A stretch of 11,771 nt of DNA from Methanobacteriota archaeon (GTDB lineage Archaea > Thermoplasmatota > Poseidoniia > Poseidoniales > Poseidoniaceae), in NCBI GenBank assembly GCA_002702945.1, contig PADF01000066.1, positions 1 through 11,771 of the forward strand. The letters run 5' to 3'. The translations under genes and the position numbers were made by a program. Positions 1-11,771 of the stretch are shown piece after piece (within the stretch, counting starts at the first letter, position 1; each line of letters starts with the position of its first letter). The notes below the pieces were generated by a model. It was given only the letters and a program-made list of their open reading frames with translations. It was not told the DNA's origin and did not search any database.

Positions 1-1147
1 ATGTTTTGCCTTCTTTACCCACTTTATTTAGGTCGCCTGGTGCATAAATGCATACATCTTTCATTGTCAGTCCATCTGTAATAGGCGAATCCTCAAACTT
101 TGGAAATATACCATCTGCCAACACACCATCACGCCATGGTCTTGTGTCTGTGGAATACTTCTTGTCATCTGCTGATGCAATCATTCTGTAGACCCATTTC
201 TTGCGATCTTCGGTTTCAACTGATGTGTACACCTGTCCATTTGCTGTTGCAAGGAAGGGAGATGCACAATCGAAGGTTGCTGTAAAGTTTTCATTGTGAT
301 ATTTTCTTACTGCTCGTTGTATGTCTGTGAGTAGAGTTGCCCATTCAAGTTTTGATGTACCTAAAAAGTGCATCACATCATGTTTGCCTTTTTCTAATAA
401 ACCATCATATCTAAGTGCAACCAAACGTTTCAATACCAAATGTACATCACACATGTTTTGTCCACCCATGGCCCAACCTTTGAAATGTGTTTCTGGGTAT
501 TTGTTTGGATCACTGTAATGTTTCATGTGTGCATACCAATTGTCTGCATCTGTGTGATTTTCACCTTGTAATACGTTAAGGAAATTACATGCACCTGTGG
601 TGTGCTTCATAAAGTATTCATTGTTGATGTCTGTGGCCGCTAATGCGTCTTTGTATTCACGTATGCCTGTAGCTTTTTGTCCTGCTTCAGACCTTGACAC
701 CCATGCTGGAATATCTAGTATCATACCATAGTCCATCAGTGCATCCATCCATTTTAAAACTAATTCTCTTTTCTTTGATGCTTTAGGACATGATGGATCT
801 TTCCAATCACCTTCCCATACACCTTTGCCTATTTGAAATCCACCTGAATCACCAAGTGCCCATGATGTTGACCTGTCTCTGTTGCGGAACATGTCTTCGC
901 CTGGAGCATCTTTGTTAAGATCAAGTGTGGCATGACCTGCTGAATATAAACACCATTTGTAATAAAACTGTGCTTTTGGGTCTAAGAAGTTTAAACTTTC
1001 AACACCATTTATAAAGTTTGATGGTATGCGTTTGTACTCAACGTATTCTTCACGCCTTTGTTTGCCAATGAACGTAGCATAAAAGCCACTCACTGCCGGC
1101 AAGAAACGGGCATAGTCAAATTGATTGTCTGTTAAGTTGCGGTTCAC
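1..1147 (-). CDS. TGT-superfamily (DpdA-like) guanine transglycosylase, 3' end outside window
   Basis: An open frame of 382 codons runs from a GTG at 1147-1145 to the window edge with no stop. Translated by hand, it shows tRNA-guanine transglycosylase active-site landmarks in the right order. DSGGFQ at residues 100-105 carries the aspartate equivalent to Zymomonas TGT D102. ILDIP has D145 where TGT has base-recognising D156. VLQGE has Q194 where TGT has Q203. GWAMGGQ at 224-230 matches the GGLAVGEG loop, HFLGTSK at 260-266 the YLMGVGKP strand, and TFDCASPF places D293 at the covalent nucleophile D280. The usual bacterial TGT N-terminus is absent, and the C-terminal zinc site would lie off the window. 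The GTG overlaps the clamp stop (TAGTG) with only a weak ribosome site; the next in-frame ATG (residue 86) would remove most of the N-terminal region. Phage DpdA proteins exchange guanine for 7-deazaguanine in DNA. That role is inferred here; a tRNA substrate is possible. Confidence 0.8.
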   Translation of the reverse strand, partial: MNRNLTDNQFDYARFLPAVSGFYATFIGKQRREEYVEYKRIPSNFINGVESLNFLDPKAQFYYKWCLYSAGHATLDLNKDAPGEDMFRNRDRSTSWALGDSGGFQIGKGVWEGDWKDPSCPKASKKRELVLKWMDALMDYGMILDIPAWVSRSEAGQKATGIREYKDALAATDINNEYFMKHTTGACNFLNVLQGENHTDADNWYAHMKHYSDPNKYPETHFKGWAMGGQNMCDVHLVLKRLVALRYDGLLEKGKHDVMHFLGTSKLEWATLLTDIQRAVRKYHNENFTATFDCASPFLATANGQVYTSVETEDRKKWVYRMIASADDKKYSTDTRPWRDGVLADGIFPKFEDSPITDGLTMKDVCIYAPGDLNKVGKEGKT

Positions 1148-1881
1148 TACTTGCTTTGAGCAGGAAGTATGAACTGATATTCACCAATACCAGAGTCAAC
1201 GGTTAATTGCAATGCACCTTCATTTGATAAATGCATTTTTACTGTGCTGGATTCTGCAAGTTTTAGTATTTGTAAAACCTGTGCCACTGGCCATGCCCAG
1301 TTTTTGTCAAGTGTGCCTGACACGCCTGGTTGGAAAATAAATTCACCTGCATGTGTAGAGTGATCACCAAAGTAAAATTTAAGATCTGTGCCATCAGTTT
1401 TTGCAACAAATGATGTTTCTTCACTGTTTGCTTGTACCTGATAACTCAGCCTTGTCACAGCCGCCATGCCGGGTTCGAATTCAATGTCCCAATTGACGCC
1501 TCTAAATTTAACTGATTTAAGTTTTTCTTCTATGATTTCTGCGTTCATAAAACGATAGTCGTTTTTGAAATCGCCATTTGCATTTTCAAAGTGTAGTCCT
1601 GTTGGATAGTCTACACCTTCTTTGTTTCTTGTGCTTACTGTTATCTTTGCACTATCTTTGTATTCTGGCACTTTGAGCAGTATGTCTAGTTTGTTCAACT
1701 GTGGCATACCAAACGTTCCTTCAATACCAATTGGTTTGTGAAACTTGCCTTTCATAATAACAGATCGATCATCTGCCATTGATTCGATTGTGGTTTCTTT
1801 AGTATCTGATACAATCTTAACCAGATTTAAAAAGCCTAATGCGTGTGTGTGCTTTACTATATCAAGTAGTGTGTCTTTCAT
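1147..1881 (-). CDS. 45: DNA polymerase sliding clamp (T4 gp45 type)
   Basis: This 244-aa protein resembles the T4 gp45 processivity clamp (228 aa), a trimeric ring that tethers gp43 to DNA and, in T4, also activates late transcription. The region around residues 52-70 (GIEGTFGMPQLNKLDILL) lines up with the T4 segment ending in DLNGFLGILSL. An ALTR-like strand appears as AVTRLSYQV, and a GEYQFILP strand lies at the C-terminus. The ATG at 1881 follows an AAGGA ribosome site and sits about 24 nt downstream of a predicted sigma70-type start. The stop codon overlaps the GTG of the transglycosylase gene by one base, so the two are probably translationally coupled. In T4, gene 45 is followed by the clamp-loader genes 44 and 62; here it is not. 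The family call rests on a recognised alignment pattern and on its place beside gp43. Confidence 0.82.
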   Translation of the reverse strand: MKDTLLDIVKHTHALGFLNLVKIVSDTKETTIESMADDRSVIMKGKFHKPIGIEGTFGMPQLNKLDILLKVPEYKDSAKITVSTRNKEGVDYPTGLHFENANGDFKNDYRFMNAEIIEEKLKSVKFRGVNWDIEFEPGMAAVTRLSYQVQANSEETSFVAKTDGTDLKFYFGDHSTHAGEFIFQPGVSGTLDKNWAWPVAQVLQILKLAESSTVKMHLSNEGALQLTVDSGIGEYQFILPAQSK

Positions 1882-1944: not shown

Positions 1945-2838
1945 TTAATTATTTTCATCTTCTTCTGGAGGGTCAATGTTAACATGAGGATCACGTTCTC
2001 GTATCAAATGGTATCTCCACCATGCTTGTCTTTTCCAATCAACCTCACCTGGTTTTTTGAATCTTAAGTATGAACATTGATCTACTTCTGTGTTTATTTG
2101 TTCTATGTCAAAGTTAGTGCAATCAAACAATAGTTCTGTTATTGTTTTTTGATCGCAGTATTGGTAATAACCTTGTTTGATTAATTCTAAATCTCCTTTG
2201 TTATCTGCATTAGAAAAATGTATACAACCACGCCCACCTTTTATTAATTTATTATTGATTTGTTGGAAAAACTTTTCAATCTGTGGAATAGTAAAGTATG
2301 GTAAGAAGTCCCAACTAAACACAAATCCAATTTCAGTATTTGGAATACCGTCAAGGTTTGTGTATTCAAAGTTTGGGTCTAGTGTAGTATGTTTAAGATG
2401 TGTTAAGAATGATGGTTGAAATCTTTTTTCTAATAACTCTGGCCAGTGTGGAAACATGTCCACAGTATGAATTTGTTCAAATGCGTTTAGATGTTCTACC
2501 CAATATCCACTGCCTAAGCCAAGCAATATACAACTCAGCATATTGGTCTTTTCATTTTGGCAAATGCTTTCAAGCTCTTTGAGAAGTTGATCTGGTACAA
2601 TTGGTTTAGGTTTTTGCTTACGGTCAAGTTCAAACCATTCTGCCGATTTAATGTTGCCAGATTTCATATGTGCGGCTACAAGTTGATTTGGACTGATGTC
2701 TTTAACAAGTTCAATTGCTTGTTTGGTTTTTGCTAGTAGATCAATTAAAGTTTGTTGGTGTTGTTCTAGTTTATTCAAATCAGTTGCATTGATATCGTTG
2801 ATGATTTCATTGAATTGATTTTTCTTTTCGTTGTCCAT
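1945..2838 (-). CDS. class I SAM methyltransferase-fold protein
   Basis: This 297-aa protein has an N-terminal charged, probably helical region (residues 1-48). A Rossmann-like core follows: ILLGLGSG at 104-111 looks like methyltransferase motif I, an acidic loop TVDMFP places D127 where SAM ribose is usually bound, FVFSWDFLPYF at 172-182 fits motif IV, and a strand-turn LIKGGRGCIHF at 198-208 fits the following part of the fold. It has no DPPY/NPPY motif, so an adenine or cytosine-N4 DNA methylase is unlikely. The tail is rich in Trp/Arg and ends acidic (DPPEEDENN). Its ATG overlaps the gp43 stop by one base (TAATG) with no Shine-Dalgarno, suggesting re-initiation after polymerase translation. 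The substrate is unknown. Confidence 0.6.
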   Translation of the reverse strand: MDNEKKNQFNEIINDINATDLNKLEQHQQTLIDLLAKTKQAIELVKDISPNQLVAAHMKSGNIKSAEWFELDRKQKPKPIVPDQLLKELESICQNEKTNMLSCILLGLGSGYWVEHLNAFEQIHTVDMFPHWPELLEKRFQPSFLTHLKHTTLDPNFEYTNLDGIPNTEIGFVFSWDFLPYFTIPQIEKFFQQINNKLIKGGRGCIHFSNADNKGDLELIKQGYYQYCDQKTITELLFDCTNFDIEQINTEVDQCSYLRFKKPGEVDWKRQAWWRYHLIRERDPHVNIDPPEEDENN

Positions 2839-5504
2839 TAAAATTCAAACAGAGTTGAAAATGTGTTATTCTGTTCCGATGCTCCTATGTCGTAGTCTAG
2901 CACACCAATTAAGTTGTCTAGCTTCTTATTAATAATTGCTTGTTCCATAGCTTCGTCATCAAATGACAGATCTTTGAACCATTGTGGTATTCTAAGTTCA
3001 TCTATTGGATAAGCAATTGATGTATACCCAAGTGGGTTGTTTTTAAGTTTGCACACAATTACTTTTGCACCATCCATTATTTCTAATGAATGTTGGTCTT
3101 TATACATTTTTTTAACATTATTCCAGTTCATAGATGCTCTAACATGACCTGGCATGTTTGCTTTGCCCATACGTTGTTCTTTTCTTACATATTCTGTTAA
3201 GTTGTTTACTCTTTTTGGTGTTCCTTTTTCCCAACCAGGACGTTCTCTAAACTGCATACGAAAGTCTTGGATAAATTTAATTATTTCTGGTTCTTTTTTA
3301 TCTGTAAGTACCATTAACAAAATATCACTTAAAAAGTTTTGTACAAATTTTGGCGTGTCTGATCTTTTTAAATCAAGGCCCATTGCTTTGACTTTGCCTG
3401 GCTTGCCGTCAACATCATGTCTTACACCTTCTAGATCATAAATTAATGCGGCATATCTTTTCTTAGTGATGTACAGTCCTTTGGATGCAACAATCTCTCT
3501 ACCACCTTTAATGATTCTGCCTTTGTTGTCTGGTGCATGGAAAGCCTCGTACATAAATCTTGGAAAGGACTTGTTTACTTCATCTGCGATTTTATCATAG
3601 AGTTCTGTGCATGACTCTTTAGTCCATGTCATTTTGCCTGCTTCAACTTCTTCTTTTACCAGTGGATATGCTGAAAAGTACACAGAGTCTGTGTCACCAT
3701 ACACAATGCCTGCACCTTTGTGATCATATTCTCCAGCAATGATCTCATTTGTTTTTGCCGCCATGTGTTTAGTAATTGATCTGCCTGTGAGTGTGATTGA
3801 CTGTCCAATACGCATGTCAAAGAATCTACAGCCTGGATTTAACAATGCACCATATAAACTATTTAGGTTAATCTTTTTAACAAGTTGTCTTTTGGCCCAA
3901 AATGCTTCTTCTGTTTTGTTTTTGGCTTCTATGGCTTGACGCATTTTGTCTTGCATTTCTTTACGTTCAGCAAACCATTTTTCTAACAAGCCTGGTATGA
4001 TTGCTTCAAACTCAAATGTGAATATGGTGCCGTTGGCAGATAATCCCCAATTGGAACCATTTTCAAATATCATGCCATACAGTTCTGCGGCTGAGTGTGT
4101 GGTTTCTGTGCCGTTGGTCCATTCAACTATGCAATTAAATGCTCTGTTCTTACGCATGACTTCTGTGTATTCAACTGTGCTGAACTGTCCTTCCCATGCG
4201 CCTGCTGGTGATTTCTTTTCAAAGTTGATTCGTTCTTCTATCAATTTTGTTGTTGCGTCTTGTTTGATCTGTCCTACGATAGTTTCTGGACCCATGTTCA
4301 TTGCTCTAATGATAGATGGATACAGTGAATTGATGTCTATTGCACCTATGTAATCATGTAAACCTTTCTTAGGCGTTGCCACATAAGCACCAACTGCCGC
4401 TCCTGTAGAGTGTGGTTCACGATATGGTCTGTTTGGAACTACCATGCCACGTTTGTGTGTTTCATTGATGATTGCTTGTTCTGTGACTGCCACAGCACCC
4501 ATTGTAGTTTGTAATAAAACTGTATTTGCATGTGCCAACACATTCGCCAAATCTAAGAACTTTAGTTTCTCATCTAGTCTCGCAATCAACATTACATCTT
4601 GTCTATTGTATTCTATAAATGTTTTGAAGTCGTTGTTGTATAATGAGTCTAGTGTTCCTTCATATGGCGTTTTCATTTCTCCAAGTTCCATATTTGAAAT
4701 TGCATCTAATGAATAAGAATGTCTTTCTTCGTATGTGTACTTTCTATAAAGTTGCATGTAATCCAAATGCACTCGACCAATCAAATCATATGTGACTTCT
4801 TCGTTACCAAAACGTTCAAACTTTCTTTTGCGTGGTGGCAAGTTCCACAAACACAGTTGACGTGCATCATCTTTGCTTAATACTTTCAATATTCTGTTTA
4901 CTGTATATGGAATGTCATAACCTTCTGAGTTCCAACCACTCAGTACGTCGGCATCTTCAATCACACCTAAGAATGTTTGTAGCAGTTGTGCTTCTGTTTC
5001 AACAATGTATGTGTTGTTAAAATCTTTCACAGAATCAACTGCTTCTTCCATGGTCAGTGTTTTGGGTGGTACAGCAATTGTTATCAGTTGATCAATCCAT
5101 TGCAAATAAACTGTGATACTTGTAATTGGCATAAATGGGTCAGCTGGTTTTGAGAAACCTCTTGAAGGATCAAAGTCAACCTCAATATCAAAGAATGCTG
5201 TGTTCATTTGTGGTGCTTCTCTGTCAAGATAGTTTTCTTCCAAGCACCTAAATATTGGATTTATATCTGCTTCATATATTTGTTTGCCTTTGTGCATAGA
5301 CAATTCTTTTTGAAAGTCTTTGTGTAGTTTTGTGCTAACACGACTAACTGGTGTGTCATATATTGATCTGTGCTTACCTTTTTGGTCGTCATAGTAGAAC
5401 ACATACCTTGCTGGATAATCTGTGTACTGTCGTTTGCCATTCACACGTTCAACTACCCAAATTTGGTCACGTTCACGATCAAAGTATGCGTCTATGTAAC
5501 TCAT
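2838..5504 (-). CDS. 43: DNA polymerase, family B (T4 gp43 type)
   Basis: The replicative polymerase, 888 aa (T4: about 900), appears complete. The 3'-5' exonuclease domain shows Exo I FFDIE (D106, E108), Exo II GWNSEGYDIPY (190-200, D197) and Exo III YNRQD (299-303, D303). The polymerase domain has motif A DINSLYPSII (390-399), motif B KKINLNSLYG (543-552) and motif C YGDTDSVY (602-609, D604 and D606), plus KGLYITKKRYA (675-685) before the thumb. All catalytic acids are present, so both activities should be intact. The C-terminus ends in TLFEF, like the T4 gp43 tail (LFDMFDF) that docks on the gp45 clamp, encoded just downstream. The ATG overlaps the stop of the SGNH-like gene (ATGA); an AAAGGA lies 13 nt upstream, a long spacing. 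No intein or split is seen. Confidence 0.97.
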   Translation of the reverse strand: MSYIDAYFDRERDQIWVVERVNGKRQYTDYPARYVFYYDDQKGKHRSIYDTPVSRVSTKLHKDFQKELSMHKGKQIYEADINPIFRCLEENYLDREAPQMNTAFFDIEVDFDPSRGFSKPADPFMPITSITVYLQWIDQLITIAVPPKTLTMEEAVDSVKDFNNTYIVETEAQLLQTFLGVIEDADVLSGWNSEGYDIPYTVNRILKVLSKDDARQLCLWNLPPRKRKFERFGNEEVTYDLIGRVHLDYMQLYRKYTYEERHSYSLDAISNMELGEMKTPYEGTLDSLYNNDFKTFIEYNRQDVMLIARLDEKLKFLDLANVLAHANTVLLQTTMGAVAVTEQAIINETHKRGMVVPNRPYREPHSTGAAVGAYVATPKKGLHDYIGAIDINSLYPSIIRAMNMGPETIVGQIKQDATTKLIEERINFEKKSPAGAWEGQFSTVEYTEVMRKNRAFNCIVEWTNGTETTHSAAELYGMIFENGSNWGLSANGTIFTFEFEAIIPGLLEKWFAERKEMQDKMRQAIEAKNKTEEAFWAKRQLVKKINLNSLYGALLNPGCRFFDMRIGQSITLTGRSITKHMAAKTNEIIAGEYDHKGAGIVYGDTDSVYFSAYPLVKEEVEAGKMTWTKESCTELYDKIADEVNKSFPRFMYEAFHAPDNKGRIIKGGREIVASKGLYITKKRYAALIYDLEGVRHDVDGKPGKVKAMGLDLKRSDTPKFVQNFLSDILLMVLTDKKEPEIIKFIQDFRMQFRERPGWEKGTPKRVNNLTEYVRKEQRMGKANMPGHVRASMNWNNVKKMYKDQHSLEIMDGAKVIVCKLKNNPLGYTSIAYPIDELRIPQWFKDLSFDDEAMEQAIINKKLDNLIGVLDYDIGASEQNNTFSTLFEF

Positions 5505-6088
5505 AAATGTTTTTCAATCCTTTTGACTATTTGCAAAGCGGCTTTGTGATTGTAATGGTTTACTTTGCCTCTTTCGTTATTCCATAGATCATTACAGTCA
5601 ATAAAATTTTCACTGTCTGTGTCTAATGTTCTACTTTCGTTATGACCAATCAAGATATATTGTTTGTGTTTTATATGGTTAATTATCTTGTCTGTGATCA
5701 TTTCATATAACTCGTTTTGATATTGTTGGTCGTAAAAATACACAAACCAATTTTTAGCAGTGGTTAATGCTTTGTTAAACCAACTTGATCGATCTATGTC
5801 CATCCAAGCCAAATCACTTTCCATAAACATTCCTTGTTTGTGAACTGGGTGTGTTTTACAATGTACCCTGTTAGGTGAACCAATACTTACTAACACAACA
5901 TCAAATTTTTCTAGGTTTGCATTTTCAACTTGTTTCCAAATTTTCCATTGCCCAACACCAGGAGTTGCCAAGTTAGTGACATTGTGTTTGTCAGCCAAAT
6001 AATTAGGCCAACCTTTGTGTGGGATTTCAACATTGTATTTTTTATAGTCAATAGCAAAACTATCACCACATATCAAAATGTTTTTCAT
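5501..6088 (-). CDS. SGNH/GDSL-like hydrolase-fold protein
   Basis: This 195-aa protein starts with a beta-strand and GDSFA (residues 8-12), the block I nucleophile motif of SGNH hydrolases, with S10 the likely nucleophile. PGVGQ at 43-47 supplies the block II glycine. VSIGSPN at 67-73 fits block III, with N73 and without the usual following Asp. Near the C-terminus NHYNH (177-181) sits where the catalytic His belongs, but the Asp expected three residues before H178 is a Lys. The fold call is good; activity is less certain. The family removes acyl or acetyl groups from lipids and glycans, and the target here is unknown. It has no signal peptide. The gene has no Shine-Dalgarno, and a predicted promoter ends seven bases from its ATG. 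It overlaps gp43 by ATGA. Confidence 0.65.
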   Translation of the reverse strand: MKNILICGDSFAIDYKKYNVEIPHKGWPNYLADKHNVTNLATPGVGQWKIWKQVENANLEKFDVVLVSIGSPNRVHCKTHPVHKQGMFMESDLAWMDIDRSSWFNKALTTAKNWFVYFYDQQYQNELYEMITDKIINHIKHKQYILIGHNESRTLDTDSENFIDCNDLWNNERGKVNHYNHKAALQIVKRIEKHL

Positions 6089-6095
6089 GTGAACT

Positions 6096-6123
6096 ATTTT
6101 AACATGTTTGCACAGTTTGTCAA
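6096..6123 (-). promoter_or_regulatory. sigma70-like promoter abutting the SGNH-like gene
   Basis: Minus-strand TTGACA (6123-6118), a 16-base spacer and TAAAAT (6101-6096), with TG one base before the -10 (extended -10). The -35 is a perfect consensus. The expected start at about 6089 is next to the ATG at 6088, which would give a leaderless or nearly leaderless transcript. It would serve the SGNH-like gene, gp43 and the downstream methyltransferase. Confidence 0.55.
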
Positions 6124-6130
6124 ATTATGC

Positions 6131-6388
6131 TTACTGTGTTTTACCAACTGTTGCTAGTATAGTTTCAAGTTCTTCCAGTTTTGCTTGTTCGTCATGTAAT
6201 CCTGCCTTGAATGCTACGTTTATTGCTTTACCAAGCATGGCTGGTTTGATATCAAGTTCTTCTGATATTGCTTTAATTGTTTCTTTTAAGCCTGCATTCA
6301 AATCACTCATTTCTTGTTTGACCTGCATACCTTCATCTATAAGTTTTTTTAATTTTGATGTTTCTTCTGGATTGAATATTCGTGACAT
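6131..6388 (-). CDS. dsbA: DsbA-like dsDNA-binding late-transcription protein
   Basis: An 85-aa, highly charged, predicted all-helical protein. Its size and the pattern of helices resemble T4 DsbA (89 aa), which binds double-stranded DNA near late promoters and aids late transcription. The shared pattern is a leading L..LI.EG helix, a central ELDIKPAMLGKAINVA (T4: ELGVDGKMFNRLL) and a C-terminal acidic helix KLEELETIL. This is similarity recognised by eye and is moderate. The ATG at 6388 follows a strong AAAGGAG (6394-6400) at five bases' spacing, and the gene has its own sigma70-like promoter. It lies between the late cassette and the replication genes. Alternatives are another small phage regulator or a UvsY-like accessory factor. 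Confidence 0.55.
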   Translation of the reverse strand: MSRIFNPEETSKLKKLIDEGMQVKQEMSDLNAGLKETIKAISEELDIKPAMLGKAINVAFKAGLHDEQAKLEELETILATVGKTQ

Positions 6389-6414: not shown

Positions 6415-6443
6415 AGTATAGCATGTTATTGTTTTTTAAGCAA
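6415..6443 (-). promoter_or_regulatory. sigma70-like promoter of the dsbA-like gene
   Basis: Minus-strand TTGCTT (6443-6438), 17 bases, then TATACT (6420-6415) preceded by TGC, an extended -10. The expected start near 6408 would fall in the perfect palindrome TTGTTATAACAA (6399-6410), just ahead of the ribosome site. The -35 lies within the last codons of the upstream methyltransferase-like gene. Confidence 0.6.
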
Positions 6444-7010
6444 CACAAAACTATACAGCTTATTTTTTTCCAATAAGACAATCTTGTAATTTATATTATT
6501 AGCAATTTGTTGTATTTGTTCAATGGTAAAATGAGATTTATCATTGTTGTCTTCGTTGTAAAATTCTTGGTTGTAAAAATTAAAAAATATTTTACAGTTT
6601 GGTTTTGCTATGGTATCAAACATATTAAAAGTTTGAACAAAATGATCAAATGTAAAATTTTCTACCACATCTTTAAGTAAAATTGTATTAACTTTAATGT
6701 CATGCAATGACTCAATGCTTGGTCCATGATGTTTGATGTTATTGTGTGTGTGGCAATTGTTTTCACACAGTTTGATCCAGTTTTGATCCACATCATAAGT
6801 GTGTACAAAATTTACTTTATTAGCAATTGCATTTGTGATAAATCCAAAACCAGCACCATAATCTAAAACGTCAATTGTTTCATTGAGTGCTAGGATTTTT
6901 AAAATCCATTCTGCTTCAAGTATTTTAAGTGATTCAACATCTTTGAGCTCAGTGATATTTTTGCCCACAGTAAGATTGATATACTTTTTAATTTGTTCAG
7001 CTGTTTCCAC
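6426..7010 (-). CDS. class I SAM-dependent methyltransferase-fold protein
   Basis: This 194-aa protein has a clear methyltransferase motif I, VLDYGAGFGFIT (residues 48-59). An acidic loop YDVD (72-75) binds the SAM ribose in this fold, and later strands LLKDVVENF and KIFFNFYNQEFY resemble the motif IV region and beyond. It contains no DNA-methylase DPPY/NPPY, so a small-molecule, protein or sugar substrate is more likely than DNA adenine. The only sensible start is the GTG at 7010: the frame is closed by a stop 9 nt upstream, no ATG exists in the N-terminal half, and there is no Shine-Dalgarno. Translation probably depends on the preceding 55-aa gene. The late promoter at 10264 is the nearest visible upstream promoter. 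The gene is very AT-rich, with many Asn and Lys codons. Confidence 0.65.
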   Translation of the reverse strand: METAEQIKKYINLTVGKNITELKDVESLKILEAEWILKILALNETIDVLDYGAGFGFITNAIANKVNFVHTYDVDQNWIKLCENNCHTHNNIKHHGPSIESLHDIKVNTILLKDVVENFTFDHFVQTFNMFDTIAKPNCKIFFNFYNQEFYNEDNNDKSHFTIEQIQQIANNINYKIVLLEKNKLYSFVLLKKQ

Positions 7011-10932: not shown

Positions 10933-11733
10933 TTATTTTTGTGGATTTTCCTTGCCTTGTGCCCAAGTATTAATATATGACACATAGTTGGCCATGCTGT
11001 GATCACTAAAACTGTCTACTTGACCCTTTTTGATACCTAGCCATAGGCCTCTCATCTTGTCTTTGAAGCGTTGCCAGCCTGACATTTTACGCACATTGCC
11101 CCATGTATTCAAGTACATACGTTCACCATCGTGTCTATATCCCATGATCCACATTGGTACTCTGGTTACAATGTCGTTGTTGTTAACCCAACGGTAATGA
11201 GTGATAGGTTCTGACTTTACATACTTTTTAAATCCAACTCTAGGTGACCCATATGTGTAAAGTTCTGCTGGATTAGGACATTCTTTTGATCCTGTGCATC
11301 TTGACGCTACAATAGTTGCCATTGCCGCTCCTAATGAATGTCCACAGAACCAAACAGTTCTTGTGTCTGCTTCACGCACAATGTCTTCGTGTAGTTTTGG
11401 CCATATTTTATCTACTTCAGTTTTGAATCCTGAATGCACATAACTCACAGTTTCTGATTTTGTTGGTATAGCATTTAGATCTGCTTTGATGTCATTGAAT
11501 TCAGTTGGCTCAGTGCCTCTACAAGCAATTACAAAATCAACTTTGTTCATGAATCTGTATGCTTGAGCACCTTCAATGTTGTAATATTCAACAGTTGTGA
11601 ATCCTAATTTCTTTGCTTCTTTGGTTGCTATTGTTTTTTCTGTGTATGCAAGTGTGGCCAATTCAGCAAACAGTAGACTTTTGTGTTGTACATCTAGATC
11701 TGCTATTGATCCTTTTAATTTTTTTGTGTGCAT
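10933..11733 (-). CDS. class 3 lipase-like alpha/beta hydrolase
   Basis: A 266-aa alpha/beta hydrolase of the fungal-type (class 3) lipase family. The nucleophile elbow is GHSLG (131-135, S133). YTYGSPRVG (159-167) is the conserved strand after it, D187 in NNND is the acid and H245 in DHSM completes the triad. ACRGTEP (70-76) fits the oxyanion-hole strand (FRGT in relatives). Length and motif order are those of the family, which cleaves acylglycerols or phospholipids. There is no signal peptide or membrane segment. I chose the ATG at 11733 because AGGGAG stands nine bases before it; a GTG at 11766 in frame would add 11 residues but has no ribosome site in view. Its promoter is outside the window. 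The role in infection is unknown: membrane lipid attack or a virion enzyme are options. Confidence 0.88.
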   Translation of the reverse strand: MHTKKLKGSIADLDVQHKSLLFAELATLAYTEKTIATKEAKKLGFTTVEYYNIEGAQAYRFMNKVDFVIACRGTEPTEFNDIKADLNAIPTKSETVSYVHSGFKTEVDKIWPKLHEDIVREADTRTVWFCGHSLGAAMATIVASRCTGSKECPNPAELYTYGSPRVGFKKYVKSEPITHYRWVNNNDIVTRVPMWIMGYRHDGERMYLNTWGNVRKMSGWQRFKDKMRGLWLGIKKGQVDSFSDHSMANYVSYINTWAQGKENPQK

Positions 11734-11742
11734 TATTTTTTT

Positions 11743-11748
11743 CTCCCT
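11743..11748 (-). promoter_or_regulatory. ribosome binding site deciding the lipase start
   Basis: AGGGAG on the minus strand, nine bases upstream of the ATG at 11733-11731. It favours this start over the in-frame GTG at 11766-11764, which would place the Shine-Dalgarno inside the coding region. Confidence 0.6.
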
Positions 11749-11771
11749 GATTTCATGTTTGCACACCAGTG

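Follow-up and report, generated by a model that had tools for sequence, protein, structure and literature searches.

A divergent family of probable DpdA-type DNA-guanine transglycosylases in marine phages and its association with a glycosyltransferase

Introduction

DpdA-type modification of phage DNA, in which a 7-deazaguanine takes the place of guanine, is known already, and phage DNA that carries 7-deazaguanine is protected from restriction. Here we compare the closest described systems with a gene at one end of an 11,771-nucleotide stretch of DNA (contig PADF01000066.1 of assembly GCA_002702945.1, deposited as a Methanobacteriota archaeon; the whole stretch is called the window below). This gene, at 2..1147 on the minus strand, is predicted from its open reading frame, residue alignment, fold, and profile links to encode a DpdA-like transglycosylase of the tRNA-guanine transglycosylase (TGT) superfamily.

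In Enterobacteria phage 9g, for whose DpdA1 the same kind of reaction has been proposed, the gene order (polymerase, clamp, DpdA, FolE, QueD) is strikingly similar to that described below; 9g differs in that its QueC is fused to Gat and in that it has no glycosyltransferase of the family found here. The DpdA2 protein of Vibrio phage nt-1 (YP_008125322), with relatives in phages pf16, ACP17, and K567, has a TGT-type core in common with the window family, including the D/DSGG, D, Q or H, HxLG, and D motifs, and is likewise encoded with FolE, QueD, and QueE genes. The same motifs occur in a group of phage "TGT domain" proteins (Vibrio phage GR11A, Pseudomonas putida Voja-type phages, NCTB, PhiXhv-16, and Achromobacter phage Motura). 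The names DpdA3 and DpdA4 have reportedly also been used, by Cui et al. in 2023. According to a published account, FolE, QueD, and QueE lead to 7-carboxy-7-deazaguanine (CDG), which QueC converts to preQ0 (PMC13329287).

Results

The open reading frame at 2-1147 starts with GTG, reads for 382 amino acids, and is open at the window edge. A twin contig (L001), which is 91-93% identical to the window over ~7 kb, supplies the full-length protein of 485 amino acids. Since the window protein is 98% identical to this twin, it comprises the N-terminal 382 of ~485 residues, with ~103 C-terminal residues falling outside the window. An earlier reading made from the sequence only had named six TGT landmarks in this frame (D100, D145, Q194, G228-G229, G263, and D293), and all six were confirmed, in order and at these numbers; when 14 sequences were aligned jointly, they fell opposite D89, D143, Q187, G213, G245, and D264 of Escherichia coli TGT. 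Across 243 homologues (the twin protein, 240 database proteins, and the proteins of phages Phosso and 2.275.O), D100, D145, and G263 were invariant, D293 and G229 were kept in 242, and position 228 held glycine in 123 and alanine in 119. The catalytic aspartates are thus kept, and D293 would be the nucleophile by alignment with TGT. All 25 PDB matches of an AlphaFold model of the twin at E<=1e-3 were TGTs, many of them entries of one protein. The fold matches and the alignment together indicate a TGT-type barrel with two catalytic aspartates.

The family was placed by hhalign profile-profile comparison against the GR11A group, DpdA2, E. coli TGT, and DpdA1. The closest profile was that of the "TGT domain" group (GR11A, Voja-6, NCTB, PhiXhv-16, and Motura; 98.0%, E 1.6e-13), which scored better than the nt-1 type DpdA2 profile (93.8%, E 1.7e-7, 183 columns). 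As background, five unrelated proteins gave E values of 0.16 or worse, and 440 comparisons with open reading frames of Campylobacter phage CP220 gave 0.007 or worse. CP220 had been included as a guess at a DpdA3 phage and may be the wrong choice; with 110 of its frames of at least 180 amino acids compared to the four profiles, the lowest E value of 0.007 was treated as background, and this link was dropped.

The GR11A group itself matched DpdA2 at 97.2%, TGT at 84.5%, and DpdA1 at 76.4%. It differs from the window family in having a histidine at the place of Q194 (5/5) and in that QueC was detected in the five phages tested; in Motura, the "TGT domain" gene clusters with QueC, QueE, and FolE. 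Compared to DpdA2 of nt-1, the window family is longer and has ~21% identity over the alignment, and a tblastn search of phage records with the window protein at E<=1e-5 did not reach DpdA2. A conserved His196 has been described in DpdA1 (PMC6884629). This residue appears to correspond to Q194, where the window family has glutamine or serine, and both DpdA2 and the window family are without the histidine at the aligned place. These comparisons support an own branch of DpdA-type enzymes, which is not DpdA1-like and lies nearer DpdA2 and the GR11A/Motura group.

Since the fold matches are tRNA TGTs, and FolE, QueD, and QueE also serve queuosine synthesis, we considered whether the protein could instead work as a tRNA-guanine transglycosylase and modify tRNA of the host or the phage in a queuosine-type reaction, with the pathway genes feeding tRNA modification. 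A CxCxxC...H zinc site is typical of TGT. The window family differs from the bacterial and eukaryotic enzymes (PF01702) in its neighbours, in giving no Pfam match to them, and in having no CxCxxC motif; among the cysteines of the twin protein, only C366 is conserved (242/243). The one-base overlap with a clamp gene described below and the finding of QueF in 1/32 records also argue against this explanation. Because the zinc motif is missing and the link to DpdA2 and its like is closer, we consider a tRNA substrate unlikely.

The family is common, with 6,862 of 7,998 scored candidate proteins matching at E<=0.001. A pattern search of IMG/VR gave at least 600 matches, and all 600 among the matches listed encode relatives. 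In 50,697 phage records, tblastn at E<=1e-5 gave 13 matches, all annotated as hypothetical: eleven PA5oct/Paride-type records (37% identity), Sinorhizobium phage Phosso (33%), and Vibrio phage 2.275.O (36% over half of the protein). The family escapes the models used for phage annotation, though it is very common.

The sequence-only reading had also placed the gene directly behind a sliding clamp in a replication operon, and the neighbouring genes bear this out. Directly upstream, 1147..1881 on the minus strand encodes a sliding-clamp-like protein (phrog_12062, of unknown function, 1.5e-35) that is 38% identical to Paride_0113 and 31% identical to Phosso_221, an annotated sliding clamp; the TAG of this gene and the GTG of the transglycosylase gene have one base in common. 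A methyltransferase-like protein (1945..2838, minus strand; Methyltransf_25 at E 0.0024, below the cut-off), present at the same place in L001, lies between the clamp and the family B DNA polymerase that this gene block also encodes (2838..5504, minus strand; phrog_262 at 2.3e-194, PF00136). The best named relatives of this polymerase, taken from the best 40 of 2,596 matching records, were those of Phosso (51%) and Atu_ph07 (43%), followed by 2.275.O and RaK2-type jumbo phages. The description of the operon as T4-type was therefore loose, the polymerase being nearest jumbo phages, and it holds in a wide sense through a gene at 6131-6388 that matches the T4-type DsbA regulator family. Elsewhere, the window encodes a small methyltransferase-like protein (6426-7010, minus strand; PF13847 at 8.1e-6, just below the cut-off) and a phage class 3 lipase-like protein (10933-11766, minus strand; PF01764 at 2.3e-21, phrog_21992 at 9.7e-27).

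On the twin contig, the clamp and transglycosylase genes are followed by QueD, two small genes, a glycosyltransferase, FolE, an amidinotransferase-like gene, and QueE. QueD was recognized by the PTPS model (1.3e-15) and FolE at 5.7e-46; QueD and QueE were below the NCBIfam cut-offs and matched PHROGs named QueD-like (3e-37) and QueE-like (1.2e-51). FolE exceeded its cut-off in 22 of 30 marine contigs, and QueE was found in 20. Among 80 loci, which are the best 80 of the at least 600 IMG/VR relatives rather than a random sample, the clamp was found in 79, the polymerase in 69, the glycosyltransferase in 66, FolE in 44, QueE in 36, and QueD in 3; of the 50 loci whose downstream sequence extends for 5 kb or more, 44 contain FolE, QueD, or QueE. 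FolE and QueD both occur in each of Paride, Phosso, 2.275.O, and nt-1, and the 2.275.O homologue is near QueF, QueC, a YhhQ-like transporter (PF02592 in the record), and FolE.

Some further genes were seen around these loci. The frame directly after the 2.275.O homologue (L083:9723-10835) gave a weak Amidoligase_2 match (1.8e-4), and this phage has QueC, QueF, and a Gat-like protein. Paride carries two QueD-like genes (L163:3496-4014 and 5791-6261), with FolE beside the first. The amidinotransferase-like frame of the twin contig (L001:11582-12529, between FolE and QueE; inosamine-phosphate amidinotransferase at 2.1e-10) was rejected as a part of the module, being found by tblastn in 2/80 loci at E<=1e-5 and in 3/80 at 1e-3. 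QueF was likewise set aside as a substitute for the absent QueC step, given its rarity.

Several results weigh against a DpdA-type enzyme. As a single sequence, the window protein found no match in Pfam (E<=0.1), in PHROGs (E<=0.01), in NCBIfam or PADLOC (E<=0.1), or in PDB sequences (E<=1); a profile of 64 family members found nothing in PDB sequences, and a Pfam scan of these members gave zero matches to the TGT model (PF01702). The hhalign comparison to E. coli TGT alone was weak (probability 20%, E 0.0011), and the DpdA1 profile, built from three sequences, had no detectable similarity (0.1%, E 0.42). Position 194 holds serine in 120 of the 243 homologues (Paride-like rows) and glutamine in 123. 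Lastly, PTPS (the Pfam model of QueD) was found in only 6/30 marine contigs, and 6/50 loci with 5 kb or more of downstream sequence gave no FolE, QueD, or QueE by tblastn.

The profile search proposed for this protein thus had a divided outcome, in that single-sequence HMM searches found no TGT while structure and profile-profile comparison recovered it. Since the sequence link to TGT is modest, the TGT assignment is carried by structure. The earlier proposal of a DpdA-like base-exchange enzyme gains support from the fold, from both aspartates, and from QueD, FolE, and QueE on the contig of the 98% identical twin. With regard to the wider pathway, these three genes were found as anticipated, but QueC and Gat were mostly not detectable and a glycosyltransferase lies in the cluster. 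Given the TGT-type barrel, the two aspartates, the place after polymerase and clamp, and the FolE, QueD, and QueE genes near it in relatives, we infer, with a probability of roughly 0.8, that the product of this gene is a DpdA-type phage DNA-guanine transglycosylase, acting on DNA.

The glycosyltransferase of the twin contig (L001:9245-10345) shares 43% identity with Paride_0116, whose gene comes immediately after that of the Paride transglycosylase homologue, and 36% identity with the product of the gene that immediately follows DpdA2 in Acidovorax phage ACP17. The model of the twin-contig protein (pLDDT 88.1) predicts a GT-B fold of the retaining GT4 kind, with matches that include BshA, MshA, and tetrahydrobiopterin glucosyltransferase. 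The family is barely seen by HMM: the Paride copy matches Glycos_transf_1 at 9.7e-4, below the cut-off, and 7/48 members are recognized. By tblastn, the Paride and ACP17 copies found 19 and 20 phage records, together 20/50,697 at E<=1e-8, and each of the 20 carries a TGT/DpdA-type gene as well. No more than ~340 of the 50,697 records are matched by the DpdA-type genes (13, 70, 236, and 18 by query). The 20 records are eleven of the Paride type, Phosso, two of ACP17 (one listed with a DpdA-type gene, the other following from the tally), X1, BUCT-ZZ01, Ep032, and three PhiXhv phages; they make up approximately six lineages and three transglycosylase types, namely the window family, DpdA2, and the GR11A/Motura type. 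Identity was 23-26% for the X1 and BUCT-ZZ01 glycosyltransferases and 24% for the PhiXhv-16 copy.

Two small protein families accompany the glycosyltransferase. The first (L001:8672-9064, 130 amino acids, unannotated) resembles QueD by profile (39.6%, E 3.1e-4, the seven other comparisons reaching at best 0.059). It is conserved at 46-68% across marine contigs, Paride, ACP17, and Phosso, with 53-68% identity in these three phages, and is found in 66/80 loci and in 26 phage records, including that of Cellulophaga phage phiST, where it is beside MazG, FolE, QueE, and QueD. In Rhizobium phage RHph_I1_18, a gene of this family (L167:7708-8085) directly follows FolE. The second family (L001:8148-8675) is found in 73/80 loci and has a weak likeness (25%) to the gene directly before DpdA2 in ACP17. 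Gene order is informative as well: in Phosso, the polymerase, clamp, small QueD-like gene, glycosyltransferase, and FolE form one cluster, QueE lies five coding sequences on, and the transglycosylase is far away; X1 has the glycosyltransferase, DpdA2, the small QueD-like gene, and QueE in this order; and in BUCT-ZZ01, DpdA2 is followed by a small gene and the glycosyltransferase.

QueC (PF06508) exceeded its cut-off in 11/18 named phages with a TGT/DpdA-type gene; for phiST, the transglycosylase was taken from the structure library. No match to PF06508 over the cut-off was found in Paride, Phosso, ACP17, Nadezda, X1 (which gave a weak match below it), BUCT-ZZ01, or phiST. In 29 marine contigs, QueC gave four weak matches, of which one was over the cut-off; these contigs are fragments, so its absence from them is weak, unlike that from Paride and Phosso, which are complete records. 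The glycosyltransferase family was present in 6/18 named phages, five of them without QueC and the sixth being PhiXhv-16. Its association with the absence of QueC gave a value of 0.013 in Fisher's exact test, for 18 phages that were hand-picked and are related rather than independent, and the pattern is a tendency, not a rule. In PhiXhv-16, the distant glycosyltransferase is beside an annotated GlcNAc-malate deacetylase and a Gat-QueC-like gene (L160:6856-8570, corresponding to 106855-108569). By analogy with the first two steps of bacillithiol synthesis, this trio may make a glucosamine-bearing deazaguanine.

The simplest account of a glycosyltransferase so tightly tied to the cluster is that it acts on the deazaguanine base. 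The DNA would then bear a sugar on 7-deazaguanine, with the transglycosylase, the GT4-type glycosyltransferase, and the small QueD-like protein in place of QueC, the base stopping at CDG or a derivative that the small protein may make. We hold this proposal tentatively, at slightly less than even odds. If the small protein were instead the CDG decarboxylase DpdL, the base would be plain 7-deazaguanine and the sugar acceptor would be harder to name, which would weaken the CDG-sugar proposal.

Alternatively, the DpdA enzyme could install an ordinary modification (dCDG, 7-deazaguanine, or dPreQ0 by way of host QueC), and the glycosyltransferase could have a different target, such as a pterin, the cell surface, or some other base. 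The GT4 enzymes have many acceptors, as the fold matches to BshA and tetrahydrobiopterin glucosyltransferase illustrate, and host enzymes may supply missing steps; Nadezda and phiST have QueD, QueE, and FolE with no QueC detected and no glycosyltransferase of the L001/Paride family. The 7-deazaguanine phages described in the accessible part of PMC6884629 are also without sugars on the base. Less easily accounted for by an ordinary modification are the restriction of the glycosyltransferase family to phage records with a TGT/DpdA-type gene (20/20) and its presence in six unrelated groups, mostly inside the modification cluster. We therefore regard an ordinary modification as a serious contender that is nevertheless doubtful.

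The tetrahydrobiopterin glucosyltransferase among the fold matches raises a further explanation, in which FolE, the QueD-like enzyme, and the glycosyltransferase make a glycosylated pterin cofactor comparable to the biopterin glucoside of cyanobacteria, with the barrel protein as a mere bystander. Although FolE is common to pterin synthesis, QueE serves deazaguanine synthesis specifically and occurs alongside in 20/30 marine contigs, and the TGT-like protein is a constant partner of the cluster, making a pterin product very improbable.

Discussion

The mechanism that we propose for the DpdA-type enzyme would start with FolE and QueD, which would convert GTP to 6-carboxytetrahydropterin, from which QueE would lead to CDG. 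After replication, D293 would attack C1' of deoxyguanosine, with D100 as acid/base, as in TGT, so that guanine is expelled and a 7-deazaguanine installed. If QueC is missing, the phage pathway would end at CDG, unless host QueC helps. Because QueC is mostly undetectable and the cluster has a conserved GT4-type glycosyltransferase, we suggest, with less certainty than for the other steps, that the base is not processed beyond CDG or a small derivative before a sugar is added, either in DNA, as by the enzymes of T4, or to the free base ahead of its insertion. The phage would probably benefit by being shielded from host restriction.

A functional precedent comes from animals, where QTMAN and QTGAL are the queuosine mannosyl- and galactosyltransferases. 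Like the enzyme proposed here, these glycosyltransferases have as their acceptor a deazaguanine nucleoside that is part of a nucleic acid, in their case tRNA rather than DNA. Our search of the literature for deazaguanine and glycosyltransferase, made on partial texts with subscription papers outside its scope, found no glycosylated deazaguanine in DNA. The accessible parts of the MIJ3 paper (PMC6892783) contain no mention of queuosine, QueE, or cyclohydrolase, and those of the Paride paper (PMC10761892) no mention of queuosine, QueE, or 7-deaza.

What this work adds to the known DpdA-type modification is a branch missed by family models, together with the glycosyltransferase link. The link gives a clear prediction for an isolated laboratory phage (Paride on PAO1), in which the possibility of a sugar on the guanine of phage DNA can be tested directly. 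If the prediction holds, glycosylated deazaguanine DNA would be a widespread guanine counterpart of the glucosylated cytosine of T4, present in abundant marine phages and in the P. aeruginosa phage Paride. If the transglycosylase family acts as proposed, guanine would be modified in many marine phages whose DNA is currently taken to be unmodified, with consequences for restriction, CRISPR, and possibly the recovery of these phages by sequencing.
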